A DNA stretch of 64,000 bases from Actibacterium sp. (GTDB taxonomy: Bacteria > Pseudomonadota > Alphaproteobacteria > Rhodobacterales > Rhodobacteraceae), in assembly GCA_016278325.1 (NCBI GenBank), contig JADQCB010000021.1, forward strand, positions 1-64,000, read 5' to 3'. Numbering within the stretch: the first letter of the stretch is position 1; each line of letters starts with the position of its first letter. Below the pieces are notes generated by a model that was not told where the DNA came from, searched no databases, and saw only the letters and a program-made list of their open reading frames with translations. A program made the translations under genes and the position numbers. Below, piece by piece: positions 23,235 to 32,481 of the stretch.

Positions 23235-24064
23235 GCGCCCAGGATAACAGCGCGGGTTTTTTCATCAACATCGGGGCGGATTCCGAACCAACGCTCGAAT
23301 CCCGGCGTTGCCTGGTGCAGCAACATCCCCAGCCCGTCCACCGTGGTGCATCCGATCCGGGCGGCACGTTCCAGCAGCGGCGTGCGCAGGGGCGTGTAAA
23401 CGATATCGCAGACCACCGCGTCCGGCGACAGCCCGTCAAGCGGCACCCGCAGTTCAGGTTTTCCTACCATCCCCAGAGAGGTCGTGTTCACCATGATCGC
23501 GGCGCCGTCGATCATGTTTCCCGCCTGCACCCAGTCATAGACATGCACCTTCGCACCGAATTCGGCCTTCAGCGAATCCGCCCGCGCGCGTGTGCGATTG
23601 CTCAACCGGATTTCCGGAACCCCGACCTCGACAAGCGATGCGATCACCGCGCGCGCGGCCCCCCCTGCGCCCAGAACCGCCGCCGGACCGCTATTCGCCA
23701 CCCAGTCCGGCGCGGCACGGCGCAGATTCTCCATGAACCCATAACCGTCTGTATTGTCGGCGTGAATCTTTCCATCCTTGCGAAATATCAAGGTATTTGC
23801 GGCACCGATCAACGCGGCGCGATCGGTCACCAGATCGGCCAGGCCAAGAACGGTTTCCTTGTGCGGGATCGTGACATTCACGCCCACGAATCCCATTCTG
23901 GGCAGTGCATCCAGCGCCTGGCGCAGGTCGGCCTGCGCGATATCCATCGGGATGTAATAGCCGGGGATGCCGTATCGGTGCAGCCAGTAATTCTGCAACC
24001 GCGGCGATTTGGAATGCGCGACGGGCGATCCGATCACCCCGGCCAGCGGTATCTTGTTGCTCAT
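23231..24064 (-). CDS. aroE: Shikimate dehydrogenase (NADP)
   Basis: A 277-residue enzyme reducing 3-dehydroshikimate to shikimate in aromatic amino-acid synthesis. The N-terminal substrate domain has [20 protein letters not shown] and the catalytic Lys in [18 protein letters not shown] precedes the Rossmann domain, which has the GxGGAA loop [11 protein letters not shown] (about residues 128-138) and SNRTRARAD (NADP ribose phosphate contact). It overlaps maf by four bases upstream and coaE by four downstream. pheA, another aromatic-pathway gene, lies 36 kb away and is not linked transcriptionally. Confidence 0.97.
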
Positions 24065-24660
24065 GCCTTCAGCAGTCCGGTTGTTGTCAGATGCGAGAGA
24101 ATTTCCAGAAGCGGCAGCTCCAGGACAACGAAATATTCGCCGTCGATCCGATTGAAAAGCCTTATGCCCTCTTCTTCAAGCTTGTAACACCCCACGCTGT
24201 GACGGGCCGACTCCCAGTTGCGGGCAAGATACTCTTCAAGATATTCGTCAGAGAACGGCCGCATGGTCAGTTGCGCCCGCCCGACATGGCGCCAGACGGG
24301 CTTGGCGAAGTCATAGATCACCGCGGCAGAGAACAGCGCGTGGCGTTGCCCCCGCAAGCTGCGCAGTTGTGTGCGCGCCTCTTCCGGCGTTCCGGCCTTT
24401 CCAAGCAATCTGCCTTTCCGATCAAGCACCTGGTCACAGCCGATGACCAGTGCCTCGGGGTATTTTTCGCTAACCCTGCGCGCCTTGAACTCGGCCAGGG
24501 CATCGGCAATATCGCGGGGCGTGGCGCCCTCTTCGACAAGGGACTCCCTTATCGCCTGCTCGTCGATCCGCGCCGGGACCGTCTGAAAGGTCAGGCCGGC
24601 ACGGGAAAGCAGATCCCGACGCGCGGATGAGGCCGAGGCAAGGATGACAGGCCGATCCAT
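24061..24660 (-). CDS. maf: Maf family nucleotide pyrophosphatase
   Basis: A 199-residue Maf/HAM1-like pyrophosphatase that hydrolyses selected (modified or pyrimidine) nucleoside triphosphates to monophosphates. The N terminus ILASASSARRDLLSRAG is the family signature, followed by VIGCDQVLD with the acidic metal ligand and the SVGCYKLEEEG segment. The exact substrate (dTTP/UTP or m7GTP) cannot be settled by eye. ATG 24660 has AGGAG six bases upstream. A longer frame upstream is non-homologous and runs into the candidate origin. It is the first gene on the minus-strand side of oriC. Confidence 0.93.
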   Translation of the reverse strand: MDRPVILASASSARRDLLSRAGLTFQTVPARIDEQAIRESLVEEGATPRDIADALAEFKARRVSEKYPEALVIGCDQVLDRKGRLLGKAGTPEEARTQLRSLRGQRHALFSAAVIYDFAKPVWRHVGRAQLTMRPFSDEYLEEYLARNWESARHSVGCYKLEEEGIRLFNRIDGEYFVVLELPLLEILSHLTTTGLLKA

Positions 24661-24948
24661 CTTTCGCTCCTGTGGACAACATGGCGAACAAGGGCGGGCG
24701 CAACATCCCCAAATCCGTGGGACAATCCCGCTCGCGCCGTTCATCATGGGACAAGAACGATCTTGTCAAGCGATCGCACATGATCTGTCCCGCGTGGACG
24801 GCGCCGCCGGCCGGATCGGGATAACCCGGATTTCGGGGGTTGTCACCTGCATGTGTTCACAGCTTGTTCTCTTGGTGGCTACACATAAAATATTGATTTA
24901 ATATAACAAAATTTTTGTATACCAGATTTTCAGAAGTTTTGAACATGG

Positions 24949-24957
24949 TTATCCACA
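24949..24957 (+). promoter_or_regulatory. Perfect DnaA box
   Basis: TTATCCACA is an exact match to the strongest DnaA-box consensus and borders the right edge of the 65-base AT-rich segment, as expected for a box next to the unwinding element. Confidence 0.8.
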
Positions 24958-24994
24958 TGCGGTTATCTTGTGGATCTTTCGCTGGATAACCTAG

Positions 24995-25012
24995 TAATCC
25001 ACATTATCCCCA
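24995..25012 (+). promoter_or_regulatory. Tandem DnaA boxes
   Basis: TAATCCACA (24995-25003) is immediately followed by TTATCCCCA (25004-25012). Each differs from the DnaA consensus at one position, and both have the same orientation with no gap, forming a direct repeat beside the second AT-rich patch. Confidence 0.7.
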
Positions 25013-25091
25013 GCCCCAACATAAACATCATCTTTTCTTTTACATATATTTATTTAGAAAAGGGGCCGAGGCATCGAAGGATCCCGAAACC

Positions 25092-25538
25092 ATGCTTGAC
25101 GTTCTGGCCGCGATCTATCCCTGGACAAAGGCATTGCATATCATCGCCGTGATCACCTGGATGGCCGGCCTGTTCTATCTTCCGCGGCTTTTCGTTTATC
25201 ACGCCGAACGCGGAGAGGCTGGCGATCTGGATGCGCTTTTCCAGACGATGGAGCGCAGGTTGCTGCGCTACATCATGAATCCGTCAATGATTGCAGTCTG
25301 GCTGTTCGGGTTGATGCTGGTATTCACCCCCGGGATCGTGAGCTGGGCCATGATCTGGCCCTGGACCAAGGCCGCGGCAGTGCTGGCGATGACCTGGTTT
25401 CACCATTGGCTGGCATTGCGCTTCAAGGATTTCGCGGCCGGTCGCAACACGGTGACGGGCCGCCGATACCGGCTGATGAACGAGGTGCCGACGCTGCTGT
25501 TGATCGTCATCGTCTTCTCGGTGATCGTGAAGTTCTGA
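25092..25538 (+). CDS. hemJ: HemJ-type protoporphyrinogen IX oxidase (CopD-like)
   Basis: A 148-residue inner-membrane protein with four hydrophobic helices. HemJ oxidises protoporphyrinogen IX to protoporphyrin IX in haem (and, where present, bacteriochlorophyll) synthesis in organisms lacking HemG and HemY. The family markers are WTKALHIIAVITWMAGLFYLPRLFVYH, with the conserved His (about residue 17), WFHHWL, and the C-terminal RYRLMNEVPTLLLIVIVFSVIVK. It begins at the plus-strand end of the candidate origin. The rho gene follows with its own promoter 126 bases on. Confidence 0.93.
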   Translation: MLDVLAAIYPWTKALHIIAVITWMAGLFYLPRLFVYHAERGEAGDLDALFQTMERRLLRYIMNPSMIAVWLFGLMLVFTPGIVSWAMIWPWTKAAAVLAMTWFHHWLALRFKDFAAGRNTVTGRRYRLMNEVPTLLLIVIVFSVIVKF

Positions 25539-25664: not shown

Positions 25665-26936
25665 ATGACTCAAGACCGTCTGAATCTCGCCGATCTCAAG
25701 GCGAAAAGCCCCAAGGATCTTCTCTCCATGGCCGAGGAGCTGGAGATCGAGAATGCCTCGACCATGCGCAAGGGGGACATGATGTTCTCCATCCTCAAGG
25801 AGCGGGCCGAGGAAGGATGGGAGATTTCCGGCGACGGCGTGCTGGAGGTCTTGCAGGACGGTTTCGGATTTCTGCGCTCGCCCGAGGCGAACTATCTGCC
25901 CGGTCCGGACGATATCTATGTCTCGCCCGACATGATCCGTCAGCACAGTCTGAGAACCGGCGACACGGTCGAAGGTGTGATGGTCGCCCCGCGCGAGAAC
26001 GAGCGTTACTTTGCCATCACGAAGGTGACGCAGATCAATTTCGAGGATCCCGAGCGCGCGCGCCACAAGATCAATTTCGACAACCTGACGCCGCTTTACC
26101 CGGACGAGCGGCTGACGATGGAAATCGAGGATCCGACGATCAAGGACCGATCGGCCAGGATCATCGACCTGGTCGCACCGATCGGAAAGGGCCAGCGATC
26201 GCTGATCGTGGCGCCGCCGCGGACCGGCAAGACGGTGCTGTTGCAGAACATCGCCAATTCGATCGAGATCAACCACCCGGAATGTTACCTGATCGTCCTT
26301 CTGATCGACGAGCGGCCCGAAGAGGTCACCGACATGCAGCGCTCGGTGAAGGGAGAGGTGATTTCCTCGACCTTCGACGAACCGGCGACACGGCACGTTG
26401 CGGTTTCCGAGATGGTGATCGAAAAGGCCAAGCGCCTGGTCGAGCACAAGCGCGACGTCGTGATCCTGCTGGATTCGATCACACGCTTGGGCCGTGCCTA
26501 TAACACGGTGGTGCCGTCCTCGGGCAAGGTCCTGACCGGTGGCGTGGATGCGAATGCGCTGCAACGCCCCAAGCGATTCTTCGGTGCCGCACGAAACATA
26601 GAAGAGGGCGGATCGCTCACCATCATCGCGACAGCGCTGGTCGATACCGGCAGCCGGATGGACGAAGTGATCTTCGAAGAGTTCAAGGGAACCGGCAACT
26701 CGGAGATCGTTCTTGATCGGAAGGTCGCCGACAAGCGGGTTTTCCCGTCGATGGATATCCTCAAGTCCGGCACCCGGAAAGAAGAGCTGCTGGTCGAAAA
26801 ATCAAACCTGCAAAAGACCTTTGTCCTGCGTCGGATCCTGAACCCGATGGGCACGACGGATGCGATCGAGTTTCTGATTTCGAAGCTGAAGCAGACCAAG
26901 AACAACGCGGAATTCTTCGATTCCATGAACACCTGA
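25665..26936 (+). CDS. rho: Transcription termination factor Rho
   Basis: A 423-residue hexameric RNA-dependent ATPase/translocase. The N-terminal helical domain (about 1-45) is followed by the cold-shock-like primary RNA-binding site ([17 protein letters not shown]; about residues 55-71). The ATPase core has Walker [13 protein letters not shown] (about 183-194), the Q-loop/R-loop region and [13 protein letters not shown]. It terminates non-coding and untranslated RNA. ATG 25665 is chosen because the 14 upstream in-frame codons (from 25623) do not look like Rho. mnmE follows 27 bases after the stop, so rho probably leads the run to parB. Confidence 0.97.
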
Positions 26937-28253: not shown

Positions 28254-30128
28254 GTGTTTCACGTGAAACATCCGGATTTCGACGTTCTGGTGATTGGCGG
28301 TGGCCATGCGGGGGCCGAAGCCGCCGACGCCGCGGCCCGCCTTGGTGCAAGGACGGCGCTGATAACCCTGCGCCGTGACGCGATTGGCGTGATGTCGTGC
28401 AATCCGGCGATCGGCGGCTTGGGCAAAGGTCATCTGGTGCGCGAGATCGACGCGATGGACGGGCTCATGGGCTGCGCCGCGGATAGGGCGGGAATCCAGT
28501 TCCGGCTGCTCAATCGGCGCAAGGGCCCGGCGGTGCAGGGCCCGCGCGCGCAGGCGGATCGCCAGGTCTATCGCGAAACGATGCAACGGCTGTTGGGCAC
28601 GCGCGCCGGTCTCGACATCGTCGAGGGTGAGGTCACCGACCTGATCATGCATGGTGATCGGGTTTCGGGCGTTGAGCTGGCCGATGGGTCGCAAATCACC
28701 GCGGGGGCGGTGGTTCTGACGACCGGGACTTTCCTGCGCGGCGTGATTCATATCGGCGATGAGCGGCGACCGGGCGGCCGTATGGGCGACAAGCCATCCG
28801 TCAGACTTGCCGAAAGGATCGACGGTTTCGATTTGCCATTGGGACGGCTGAAGACCGGGACGCCGCCGCGCCTCGATGGCCGCACGATTGATTGGGGCGC
28901 CCTGGCATCGCAGCCGGGCGATGATGACCCGACGCTGTTTTCCTTCCTGTCGCAAACGCCGTTTCTGCGCCAGGTGGCTTGCGGCATAACCCACACGAAT
29001 GAGCGGACGCATGAGATCATCCGCGACAACCTGGGACGCTCGGCGATGTATGGCGGGCATATCGATGGTGTCGGCCCGCGTTATTGCCCCTCGATCGAGG
29101 ACAAGGTGATCCGCTTCGCGGACAAGACCTCGCACCAGATTTTTCTGGAACCCGAGGGGCTGAACGATAGCACGGTCTATCCCAACGGGATCTCGACTTC
29201 GCTGCCACAGGATGTGCAGGCGGAATATGTTCATTCGATCGCAGGGCTGGAAAATACGCGCATCGTTCAACCCGGGTATGCCATCGAATATGATTATGTC
29301 GATCCAAGGGCGTTGACCGCCAGTCTCGCGTTGAAGGACGTGCCCGGGCTGTTTCTTGCCGGTCAGATCAACGGTACCACCGGATATGAAGAGGCCGCGG
29401 CCCAGGGCTTGGTGGCCGGGCTAAATGCCGCCCTGTCTGTCCAGGGGCGTGAGCCCGCGCTTTTCACCCGAACCGAGAGCTATATCGGCGTGATGATAGA
29501 TGATTTGATCACGCGGGGGGTAAGCGAGCCCTATCGCATGTTCACCTCGCGCGCCGAATTTCGGCTGTCACTGCGCGCGGATAACGCGGATCAACGCCTG
29601 ACGCCGATGGCCGAGGCATTGGGATGTGTGGGCGACGATCGCCGGCGCGTCTTCAACGACAAGATGGACGCGTTGACCGATGCGCGTGCGCGGCTCGACG
29701 CATTTTCACTGACCCCAAAGCAGGTTGCGGCGGTAGGAATTCGCATCAATGCCGATGGGCAACGCCGATCCGGGTTTGACCTGCTTGCATTCCCGGATGT
29801 CGGTTTTGCCGATCTTCGTCCGCTCGACCCGGGCCTGTGCGATGTTCCGGGGCCGATAGCGGAACAGCTGGAGCGTGATGCGCTCTATGCCAATTACATC
29901 CGCCGGCAGCACGAGGATGTCGCGGCGATGCGGCGGGATGAGGCTCAGGCGATCCCGGACGATTTCGATTATGCTGGGCTCAGCGGCCTGTCGAACGAGC
30001 TCAAGACAAAGCTTTCGCTCGTGCGCCCGGCGACATTGGGACAAGCCGGTCGGGTCGAGGGCATGACCCCTGCGGGTCTTACCCTGATACTGGCGCAGCT
30101 GCGGCGTATGGAGCGCAAGACGGCATGA
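28254..30128 (+). CDS. mnmG: tRNA U34 carboxymethylaminomethyl synthase flavoprotein MnmG (GidA)
   Basis: A 624-residue FAD enzyme, partner of MnmE. The dinucleotide-binding loop is [19 protein letters not shown] (about residues 13-31). The GidA signatures [16 protein letters not shown] and [16 protein letters not shown] are present. The start is ambiguous: GTG 28254 gives MFHVKH, but GTG 28263 (three codons on) has GAGGAG at an ideal eight-base distance. Both starts fall inside the parS palindrome. It sits between mnmE (3-base gap) and rsmG (ATGA overlap). Its start codon doubles as part of a centromere site, so ParB occupancy could affect this operon. Confidence 0.97.
28255..28270. promoter_or_regulatory. 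parS centromere site overlapping the mnmG start codon
   Basis: TGTTTCACGTGAAACA is a perfect 16-base palindrome identical to the universal chromosomal parS consensus bound by ParB. It begins at the second base of the mnmG GTG codon and encodes residues 2-6 (FHVKH). It lies about 3.3 kb from the candidate oriC and 2.5-3.3 kb before parA and parB. Confidence 0.95.
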
Positions 30129-30742
30129 GCGATGCTGAGATTGCCGGGCTGAATGTTTCACGTGAAACAGACGAGCGGTTTAATCGCTATCGCGCATTGC
30201 TTGAAAAATGGAACCCCAGGATCAACCTCGTATCCCGATCGACGCTGGTTGATGTCTGGACCCGACATTTCGTCGATTCGGCGCAGCTGATGGGGTTGTG
30301 TCCCGCCGGGGTTCGCCACTGGGCGGATCTTGGATCGGGCGGCGGCTTTCCCGGATTGGTGGTGGCGGTTCTTGCCGCCGAATTGGCGCCGCAGATGCGC
30401 GTGACCCTCGTCGAAAGCGATCAGCGCAAGGCGACCTTCCTCTGGACGGTCGCGCGCGATCTGAAGATCGCGCCGGAGATCATCACTGGCCGGATCGAGG
30501 AAATTCCAAACCTGGAGGCCGATCTTATCTCGGCGCGCGCCCTTGCGCCGCTGGATCAGCTTCTCGGGCTTGCATTCCGGCATCTCTTGCCTGGCGGAGT
30601 CGCGCTGTTGCCCAAGGGAATCGGCCATGCCCGGGAAATTTCCGATGCGCTTGCATTATGGCGTTTCGACGTTCAGAAATATCCCAGCCGCACCGATCCT
30701 GGCGCGGTCATCCTGAAGATCGAGGGACTTTCGCGTGTCTGA
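30125..30742 (+). CDS. rsmG: 16S rRNA (guanine527-N7)-methyltransferase RsmG (GidB)
   Basis: A 205-residue class I SAM-dependent methyltransferase that modifies G527 of 16S rRNA; loss usually gives low-level streptomycin resistance. The SAM-binding motif is [18 protein letters not shown] (about residues 62-79), followed by [22 protein letters not shown] is the typical N-terminal family segment. It overlaps mnmG by four bases upstream and parA by eight downstream. A second parS site is embedded in codons 10-15 and is translated as NVSRET. Confidence 0.96.
30154..30169. promoter_or_regulatory. Second parS centromere site, inside rsmG
   Basis: A second exact TGTTTCACGTGAAACA palindrome, 1,899 bases after the first. 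It lies wholly within the rsmG reading frame and about 5 kb from the candidate origin. Two perfect 16-mers this close cannot reasonably be chance. Confidence 0.95.
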
Positions 30743-31544
30743 TCCGACCCGGCCGAAAGGGCCGAAAATCATCGCTGTCGCCAACCAGAAGGGCGGTGTT
30801 GGCAAGACGACCACGGCGATCAACCTGGCCGCAGCCCTGGCCGCCGAGGGGCTGACCGTGCTCATCGTCGATATCGACCCGCAGGGCAACGCCTCAACCG
30901 GGCTGGGGGTGGAGCGCTCGCAGCGTCAGAAAACGACCTATGATCTGCTTCTGGAAGACGCCCCGCTGACCGAGGTAATCAGGCCGACCGGGATTGACGG
31001 GCTTTTGATCGCGCCGGCGACAACCGATCTCAGCTCGGCGGATATCCAGATGGTTTCCAACGAGAAACGGATTCATCTTCTGCATGACGCGCTGCGGCAG
31101 CCGCAGATGGAAAGCTATGGTCTCGATTACATCCTGATCGATTGCCCGCCATCGCTGTCGCTGTTGACGGTGAATGCGATGGTGGCCGCACATTCGGTTC
31201 TGGTTCCGTTGCAAAGTGAATTCTTTGCCCTCGAAGGCTTGTCGCAGCTCATGCTGACGATCCGCGAATTGCGAAATGCGGCAAATCCGCAATTGCGCAT
31301 CGAGGGCGTCATCATGACGATGTATGACCGCCGGAACAATCTTTCGCAGCAGGTTGAGAGCGACGCGCGTGAATATCTGGGTAACCTGGTGTTCGAGACG
31401 GTGATTCCACGAAATGTGCGGCTGAGCGAGGCGCCATCCTTCGCGATGCCGGTGATGGATTATGATCCGACCTCGCAAGGGGCGGTTGCATATCGCCGGC
31501 TTGCGCTGGAAATGCTGAAACGAAACGCCCCCGTCGCGGCATGA
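30735..31544 (+). CDS. parA: Chromosome-partitioning ATPase ParA
   Basis: A 269-residue deviant Walker ATPase. The P loop [17 protein letters not shown] carries both the signature Lys and the catalytic Lys (about residues 15-31). [13 protein letters not shown] and [18 protein letters not shown] (Walker B) follow. It binds DNA non-specifically when ATP-loaded and moves ParB-parS complexes of newly replicated origins apart. The start is GTG 30735 with GAGGGA upstream, inside the last codons of rsmG. parB follows after 13 bases. Confidence 0.97.
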
Positions 31545-31557
31545 GGAGGCCGGAGAG

Positions 31558-32481
31558 ATGAACAGGAAACCCGAAAAGCGCGGGCTGGGCCGCGGGCTGT
31601 CGGCGCTGATGGCCGATATCAATACGGAAACCGAGGGCGAAGCCTCGGCCGAGGCGGCGGAATCCGCGGGGAACACCCGTCGGCGCGCCGATATGACCGT
31701 GCCGGTGGAAAAGCTTGTTCCGAACCCCGGTCAGCCACGCCGCCATTTCGCACAGGAGGCGTTGGAGGAGCTGGCCGCCTCGATCCGCGAAAAGGGCGTC
31801 ATCCAGCCGCTGATCGTGCGCCCGGCGAAAACCGGAACGGACAGCTATGAAATTGTCGCGGGTGAACGCCGCTGGCGGGCCGCGCAACAGGCACAGTTGC
31901 ATGAAATTCCGGTCATCGTGCGCGATTTCGACGATACCGAAGTTCTGGAAGTCGCGATCATCGAAAATATCCAGCGCGCTGATCTGAACCCTGTGGAAGA
32001 GGCCCAGGGCTATCGGCAGTTGATGGACCGTTTCGGCCATACTCAGGAGCGGCTGGCCGAAGCGCTGAGCAAGAGCCGCAGCCATATCGCCAATCTCATG
32101 CGTTTGCTGCAACTACCGCCGGAAGTGCAGGATCACCTGCGCGAAGGGCGGCTTTCTTCGGGCCATGCACGCGCGCTGATCACCACGGATGATCCTGTTG
32201 CGATGGCGCGCGAGGTTATCGCCAAGGGCCTGTCCGTGCGCGAGACGGAAAAGCTGGTGCAGCGTCCCCGCAAGGCGGGGGCCGGAAAATGCGGGGCAGG
32301 TGGCGAAAAATCGGTCGAGAAGGATGCCGACACAAGGGCGTTGGAGGCAGACCTGTCCGCCGCGCTGAAAATGCCTGTCAGCATAGATCATCCACCCGGA
32401 CAGGAAGCGGGGCAGATCACGATTCGCTATGACAGTCTCGAAAAGCTGGATGAACTTTGCCGGTTGCTGAGCGCCGGTTGA
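31558..32481 (+). CDS. parB: Chromosome-partitioning protein ParB
   Basis: A 307-residue centromere-binding CTPase. The N-terminal KRGLGRGLSALMAD motif contacts ParA. The CTP-binding pocket includes GERRWRAAQQA (about residues 101-111) and ENIQRADLNPVEEA. The helix-turn-helix LSKSRSHIANLMRLLQLP (about 170-187) reads parS, and the C-terminal dimerisation domain spans about 255-307. Two matching parS sites lie upstream in mnmG and rsmG. GAGGAGG precedes the ATG. It converges with the DUF454 gene only three bases away, with no visible terminator between. Confidence 0.97.
   Translation: MNRKPEKRGLGRGLSALMADINTETEGEASAEAAESAGNTRRRADMTVPVEKLVPNPGQPRRHFAQEALEELAASIREKGVIQPLIVRPAKTGTDSYEIVAGERRWRAAQQAQLHEIPVIVRDFDDTEVLEVAIIENIQRADLNPVEEAQGYRQLMDRFGHTQERLAEALSKSRSHIANLMRLLQLPPEVQDHLREGRLSSGHARALITTDDPVAMAREVIAKGLSVRETEKLVQRPRKAGAGKCGAGGEKSVEKDADTRALEADLSAALKMPVSIDHPPGQEAGQITIRYDSLEKLDELCRLLSAG

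Follow-up and report, generated by a model that had tools for sequence, protein, structure and literature searches.

The report on Ketogulonicigenium vulgare Hbe602 cites DoriC for the conservation of an oriC adjoining maf in Rhodobacteraceae (PMC4793288), and a second study predicts oriC in 101 strains, using clustered DnaA boxes, GC disparity and nearness to parAB (PMC6699656). In Caulobacter crescentus, the origin (Cori) sits between hemE and COG1806 (PMC1914354, PMC4468827). The basal unwinding system of Bacillus subtilis consists of tandem DnaA boxes and DnaA-trios (PMC8287927).

We analyzed a 64-kb stretch of Actibacterium sp. DNA (the window), in which an intergenic gap of 431 bp (24661-25091) separates the divergent genes maf and hemJ. 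Judging from the sequence, this gap is almost certainly the replication origin (oriC) of the main chromosome, a proposal supported by synteny, by box enrichment across 107 distinct relatives, by the placement of parS and by the GC skew of one discriminating relative. It is the same locus as the oriC predicted for Rhodobacteraceae, in another member of the family and with no categorical difference: in the excerpts of PMC4793288 and PMC6699656, that oriC is also a gap by maf, near parAB, with DnaA boxes and a local GC minimum. An origin at maf-hemJ is thus not new for Rhodobacteraceae, its position having already been predicted for the family in these two reports. The new detail is the internal layout, namely an IHF-like site in the left AT-rich patch and a 3-nt-periodic element after the last box, and the same excerpts do not describe this conserved layout. 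The features, in window coordinates, are as follows.

24061-24660, minus strand: maf (nucleotide pyrophosphatase)
24661-25091: probable oriC, intergenic; synteny in 110/110 hemJ loci, boxes 37.6-fold over flanks
24671-24679, minus strand: DnaA box, 8/9, TTGTCCACA, left box group; family consensus CTGTGGATAACCCTGTGGA
24816-24824, minus strand: DnaA box, 7/9, TTATCCCGA; conserved position, box with ≤2 mismatches in 42/107 relatives
24853-24861, plus strand: degenerate box, 6/9 in Actibacterium sp.; position is a box in 58/107 relatives
24885-24934: left AT-rich patch, with the lowest duplex stability of any 50 bp in the window (nearest-neighbour energy)
24886-24898, minus strand: putative IHF site, exact match to the consensus motif WATCAANNNNTTR, between left and right box groups
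24949-24957, plus strand: perfect DnaA box, TTATCCACA; box with ≤2 mismatches in 46/107 relatives
24969-24977, minus strand: DnaA box, 7/9; conserved position, box with ≤2 mismatches in 75/107 relatives
24981-24989, minus strand: DnaA box, 7/9
24995-25003, plus strand: DnaA box, 8/9, TAATCCACA; most conserved box position, 78/107 relatives
25004-25012, plus strand: DnaA box, 8/9, TTATCCCCA, abutting the previous box; 47/107 relatives
25013-25034, plus strand: 3-nt-periodic element, consensus CCCTACAACATCATCATC, here GCCCCAACATAAACATCATCTT; family-conserved, DnaA-trio-like in position
25032-25061, plus strand: T-rich probable DNA unwinding element, inside the second least stable 50 bp (25012-25061)
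25092-25538, plus strand: hemJ (protoporphyrinogen oxidase), 135.9 bits against a curated cut-off of 138.05
25665-26936, plus strand: rho
28255-28270: perfect parS, start region of mnmG
30154-30169: perfect parS, start region of the ORF 30125-30742 after mnmG
30735-31544, plus strand: parA; ParA-family matches under the curated cut-off, backed by position and parB
31558-32481, plus strand: parB

Like Cori, the gap measures approximately 400 bp and contains DnaA boxes, one IHF site (putative in Actibacterium sp.) and an AT-rich region. Cori combines moderate G-boxes with weak W-boxes, whereas the Actibacterium sp. boxes include a perfect one, and Cori has five CtrA sites, whereas a search of the gap for the CtrA site TTAA-N7-TTAA found none. 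The neighbourhood also differs, the left neighbour being maf and hemE lying elsewhere, on contig C10. Two relatives (G079 and G085) carry hemE between the gap and hemJ, and the resulting order of maf, origin and hemE-hemJ therefore links the maf-type locus to Cori. In Actibacterium sp. and several relatives hemE is found elsewhere, leaving hemJ at the edge of the gap; these few genomes suggest that hemE may have been lost from its place beside the origin. The maf-hemE gap of G085 (G085:C1:2737690-2738915, approximately 1.2 kb) is longer than elsewhere and shows box-like sites in its hemE-proximal part. CtrA-like TTAA-N7-TTAA sites occur in the gap of approximately 13% of the relatives, mostly at one column near 24693, compared to 1.5% in shuffles.

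The first-pass annotation had reported a perfect box (24949-24957), two abutting 8/9 boxes (24995-25012), two reverse-oriented 7/9 boxes, which we found at 24969-24977 and 24981-24989, and a further 8/9 box at 24671-24679. Every one of these boxes is real; the inventory was incomplete, missing the 7/9 box at 24816-24824 on the minus strand, and the conserved box positions in the family number about nine, not five. The whole window contains five boxes with ≤1 mismatch, four of them inside the gap. Genome-wide there are 166 such boxes in 3,248,763 bases (3.25 Mb), giving an expectation of 0.022 per 431 bp and a probability of about 1e-8 for at least four at a given place, or of the order of 1e-4 once all such windows in the genome are allowed for. 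No other group of at least three boxes within 500 bp was seen among the 100 listed of the 166 genome matches. The DnaA protein of Actibacterium sp. carries GGRDHTT, a canonical box-binding motif. A search for CcrM-type GANTC sites found none in the gap and no enrichment across the gaps of the family.

To follow the locus across the family, hemJ loci were gathered by HemJ similarity alone, not by boxes, from same-family whole genomes and from named genome contigs that included Actibacterium, Pseudooceanicola, Roseovarius, Defluviimonas and others. This gave 110 loci including the one in the window itself, and per-position box counts were made over 107 distinct relatives. A divergent maf precedes hemJ in all 110 loci, across a gap of 358-452 bp (median 412). 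The gaps contain 5.85 boxes per kb, compared to 0.156 per kb in the flanks, and an average gap holds 2.43 boxes, compared to 0.11 in shuffles; in five of the 107 relatives the gap lacks any box with ≤1 mismatch. The boxes recur at eight aligned positions, which in window coordinates are 24683 (-), 24793 (-), 24816 (-), 24853 (+), 24949 (+), 24969 (-), 24995 (+) and 25004 (+), and the left box at 24671 recurs as well. Some of the family positions are only degenerate in Actibacterium sp., among them 24683, a second copy of the family consensus CTGTGGATAACCCTGTGGA. In the whole-genome hemJ search, 22 of the 117 relatives with a match had only a distant one (about 27-34% identity).

Genes on both sides of the gap read outward, as had been proposed, with dnaQ, coaE, aroE and maf leftward and hemJ, rho, mnmE, mnmG, parA and parB rightward. 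The parABS system with two parS sites was likewise found within 7.5 kb, the end of parB being 7.4 kb away and both sites (at 28255 and 30154) perfect. Two parS sites adjoin the locus in nine of nine near-complete relatives, and no other parS with ≤1 mismatch was detected in these nine, except for one extra site in G100. The two sites are spaced approximately 1.9 kb apart, a spacing kept in the nine relatives, and both overlap gene start regions (those of mnmG and ORF 30125-30742).

The gap had been described as the only AT-rich gene-free stretch of the window, which goes a little too far. Its two patches, 24885-24934 and 25012-25061, are clearly the most extreme; weaker ones exist near 790-907 and 32919. 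The proposed arrangement of two AT-rich patches flanking the boxes was right, with the qualification that the left patch is probably a bending site, having a consensus IHF site inside it. At the same alignment column the IHF motif is exact in 14 of the 107 relatives and present in relaxed form in 27 of the 107; the exact motif is found in only 15 of the 107, and an exact match anywhere in a gap is expected at 2%. Because the left patch contains this putative site, the right patch is the likelier unwinding element.

The element CCCTACAACATCATCATC follows the last box and leads into the T-rich stretch. Counted by phase and anchored on CTA in 77 relatives, its CA dinucleotides are distributed 162/48/8, a strong periodicity, and tandem CAT is present in 68 of the 107 relatives, whereas a control slice shows it in 2 of 107. 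The order of parts is like that of the B. subtilis system (PMC8287927): tandem boxes, a short GC-rich spacer, a 3-nt-periodic element starting with CTA, and then AT-rich DNA. The CTA start corresponds to 3'-GAT-5' on the other strand. Unlike in B. subtilis, the later triplets are mostly CAA/CAT, placing T opposite the middle base where a conserved A would be, unless the triplets are read one base out of this register. The loose DnaA-trio pattern, which calls for three or more 3'-NAN-5' triplets no further than 16 bp from a DnaA box, was found in 65 of the 107 relatives, compared to 74 in shuffles, and was dropped as evidence for lack of enrichment. Since this published pattern is not enriched, we do not claim identity with DnaA-trios; the element resembles them in position and layout only and is a candidate. 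We offer tentatively, as a possibility on the doubtful side, that CCCTA-CAA-CAT-CAT-CAT with the T-rich DNA might be a lineage-specific DnaA-trio form, read by the Rhodobacteraceae DnaA to start melting. Such a form would open with the canonical 3'-GAT-5' and continue with triplets that have a middle T (or with a one-base register shift).

From this layout we infer initiation at the gap, together with the occupancy of its sites by DnaA and IHF, the patch that melts and the order of events. DnaA would bind two groups of boxes, one on the left (24671-24824) and an array on the right (24949-25012), and IHF or a related bending protein would fold the DNA at 24886-24898, joining both groups. DnaA would extend rightward from the tandem boxes (24995-25012) across the CTA/CAT triplet element, and the T-rich stretch at 25032-25061 would melt and take up the helicase. 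ParB at the two parS sites, 3-5 kb away, would segregate the new origins.

Both maf and hemJ begin at the edges of the gap, so their promoters must be sited within it or close by, and in Caulobacter DnaA acts as a transcription regulator (PMC3193534). The gap might accordingly be merely a divergent maf/hemJ promoter region, with boxes that serve DnaA-controlled transcription or DnaA titration. We consider this highly improbable: a promoter-only reading leaves unexplained the constant gap size, the approximately nine recurring boxes, the IHF-like site, the T-rich element, the adjacency of parS and the skew, and relatives with hemE in place of hemJ on the right still have box-like sites.

The skew also bears on whether the true origin is at another place, near dnaA or hemE for instance, with the maf-hemJ locus being a parS/centromere region only. 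The Actibacterium sp. genome is in 62 contigs, and skew was read from its own 114.5-kb contig and four sampled relatives. Cumulative GC skew is lowest at 25205, both in the window and in the contig, the skew to the left of this point being nearly flat, and the skew broadly fits the locus, at a coarse scale, in three of the four relatives (G085, G048 and G116). In several relatives dnaA is only about 25-125 kb away, and coarse skew therefore cannot separate dnaA from the locus. The local cumulative minimum of G048 (101622) is about 21 kb from hemJ (123201). Two relatives do not point exactly at the locus: the local minimum of G116 falls about 175 kb from it, making the agreement coarse, and in G027 the correlation is 0.11 at the locus and 0.50 at best, with no single origin fitting well, for which reason G027 was not used as support. 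The near-complete G027:C1 has patchy skew and no good origin-terminus pair, suggesting rearrangement or misassembly. G085 discriminates between the two places, its dnaA (2.233 Mb) being 0.5 Mb from the locus (2.738 Mb). The skew of G085 turns positive at about 2.5-2.7 Mb, and a symmetric two-arm model gives a correlation of 0.61 at the locus vs 0.27 at dnaA, favouring the maf-hemJ locus; the correlation peaks at 0.69, at about 2.6-2.69 Mb. No rival box cluster was found at the places named by the first-pass annotation. Four 20-kb stretches of the dnaA contig (C14) contain one box, approximately 33 kb from dnaA and thus not near it, and by hemE the nearest of the matches listed is a lone box at 38626 of contig C10, 9.8 kb off. 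An origin elsewhere is, in our assessment, extremely improbable.

Placing oriC at the maf-hemJ gap narrows the origin of the Actibacterium sp. genome to 431 bp. A conserved parts list is now available for a class of origin that, from the excerpts of the earlier reports, is known chiefly through prediction. With the triplet element it becomes testable whether the DnaA-trio rule of a conserved middle A holds in Rhodobacteraceae.
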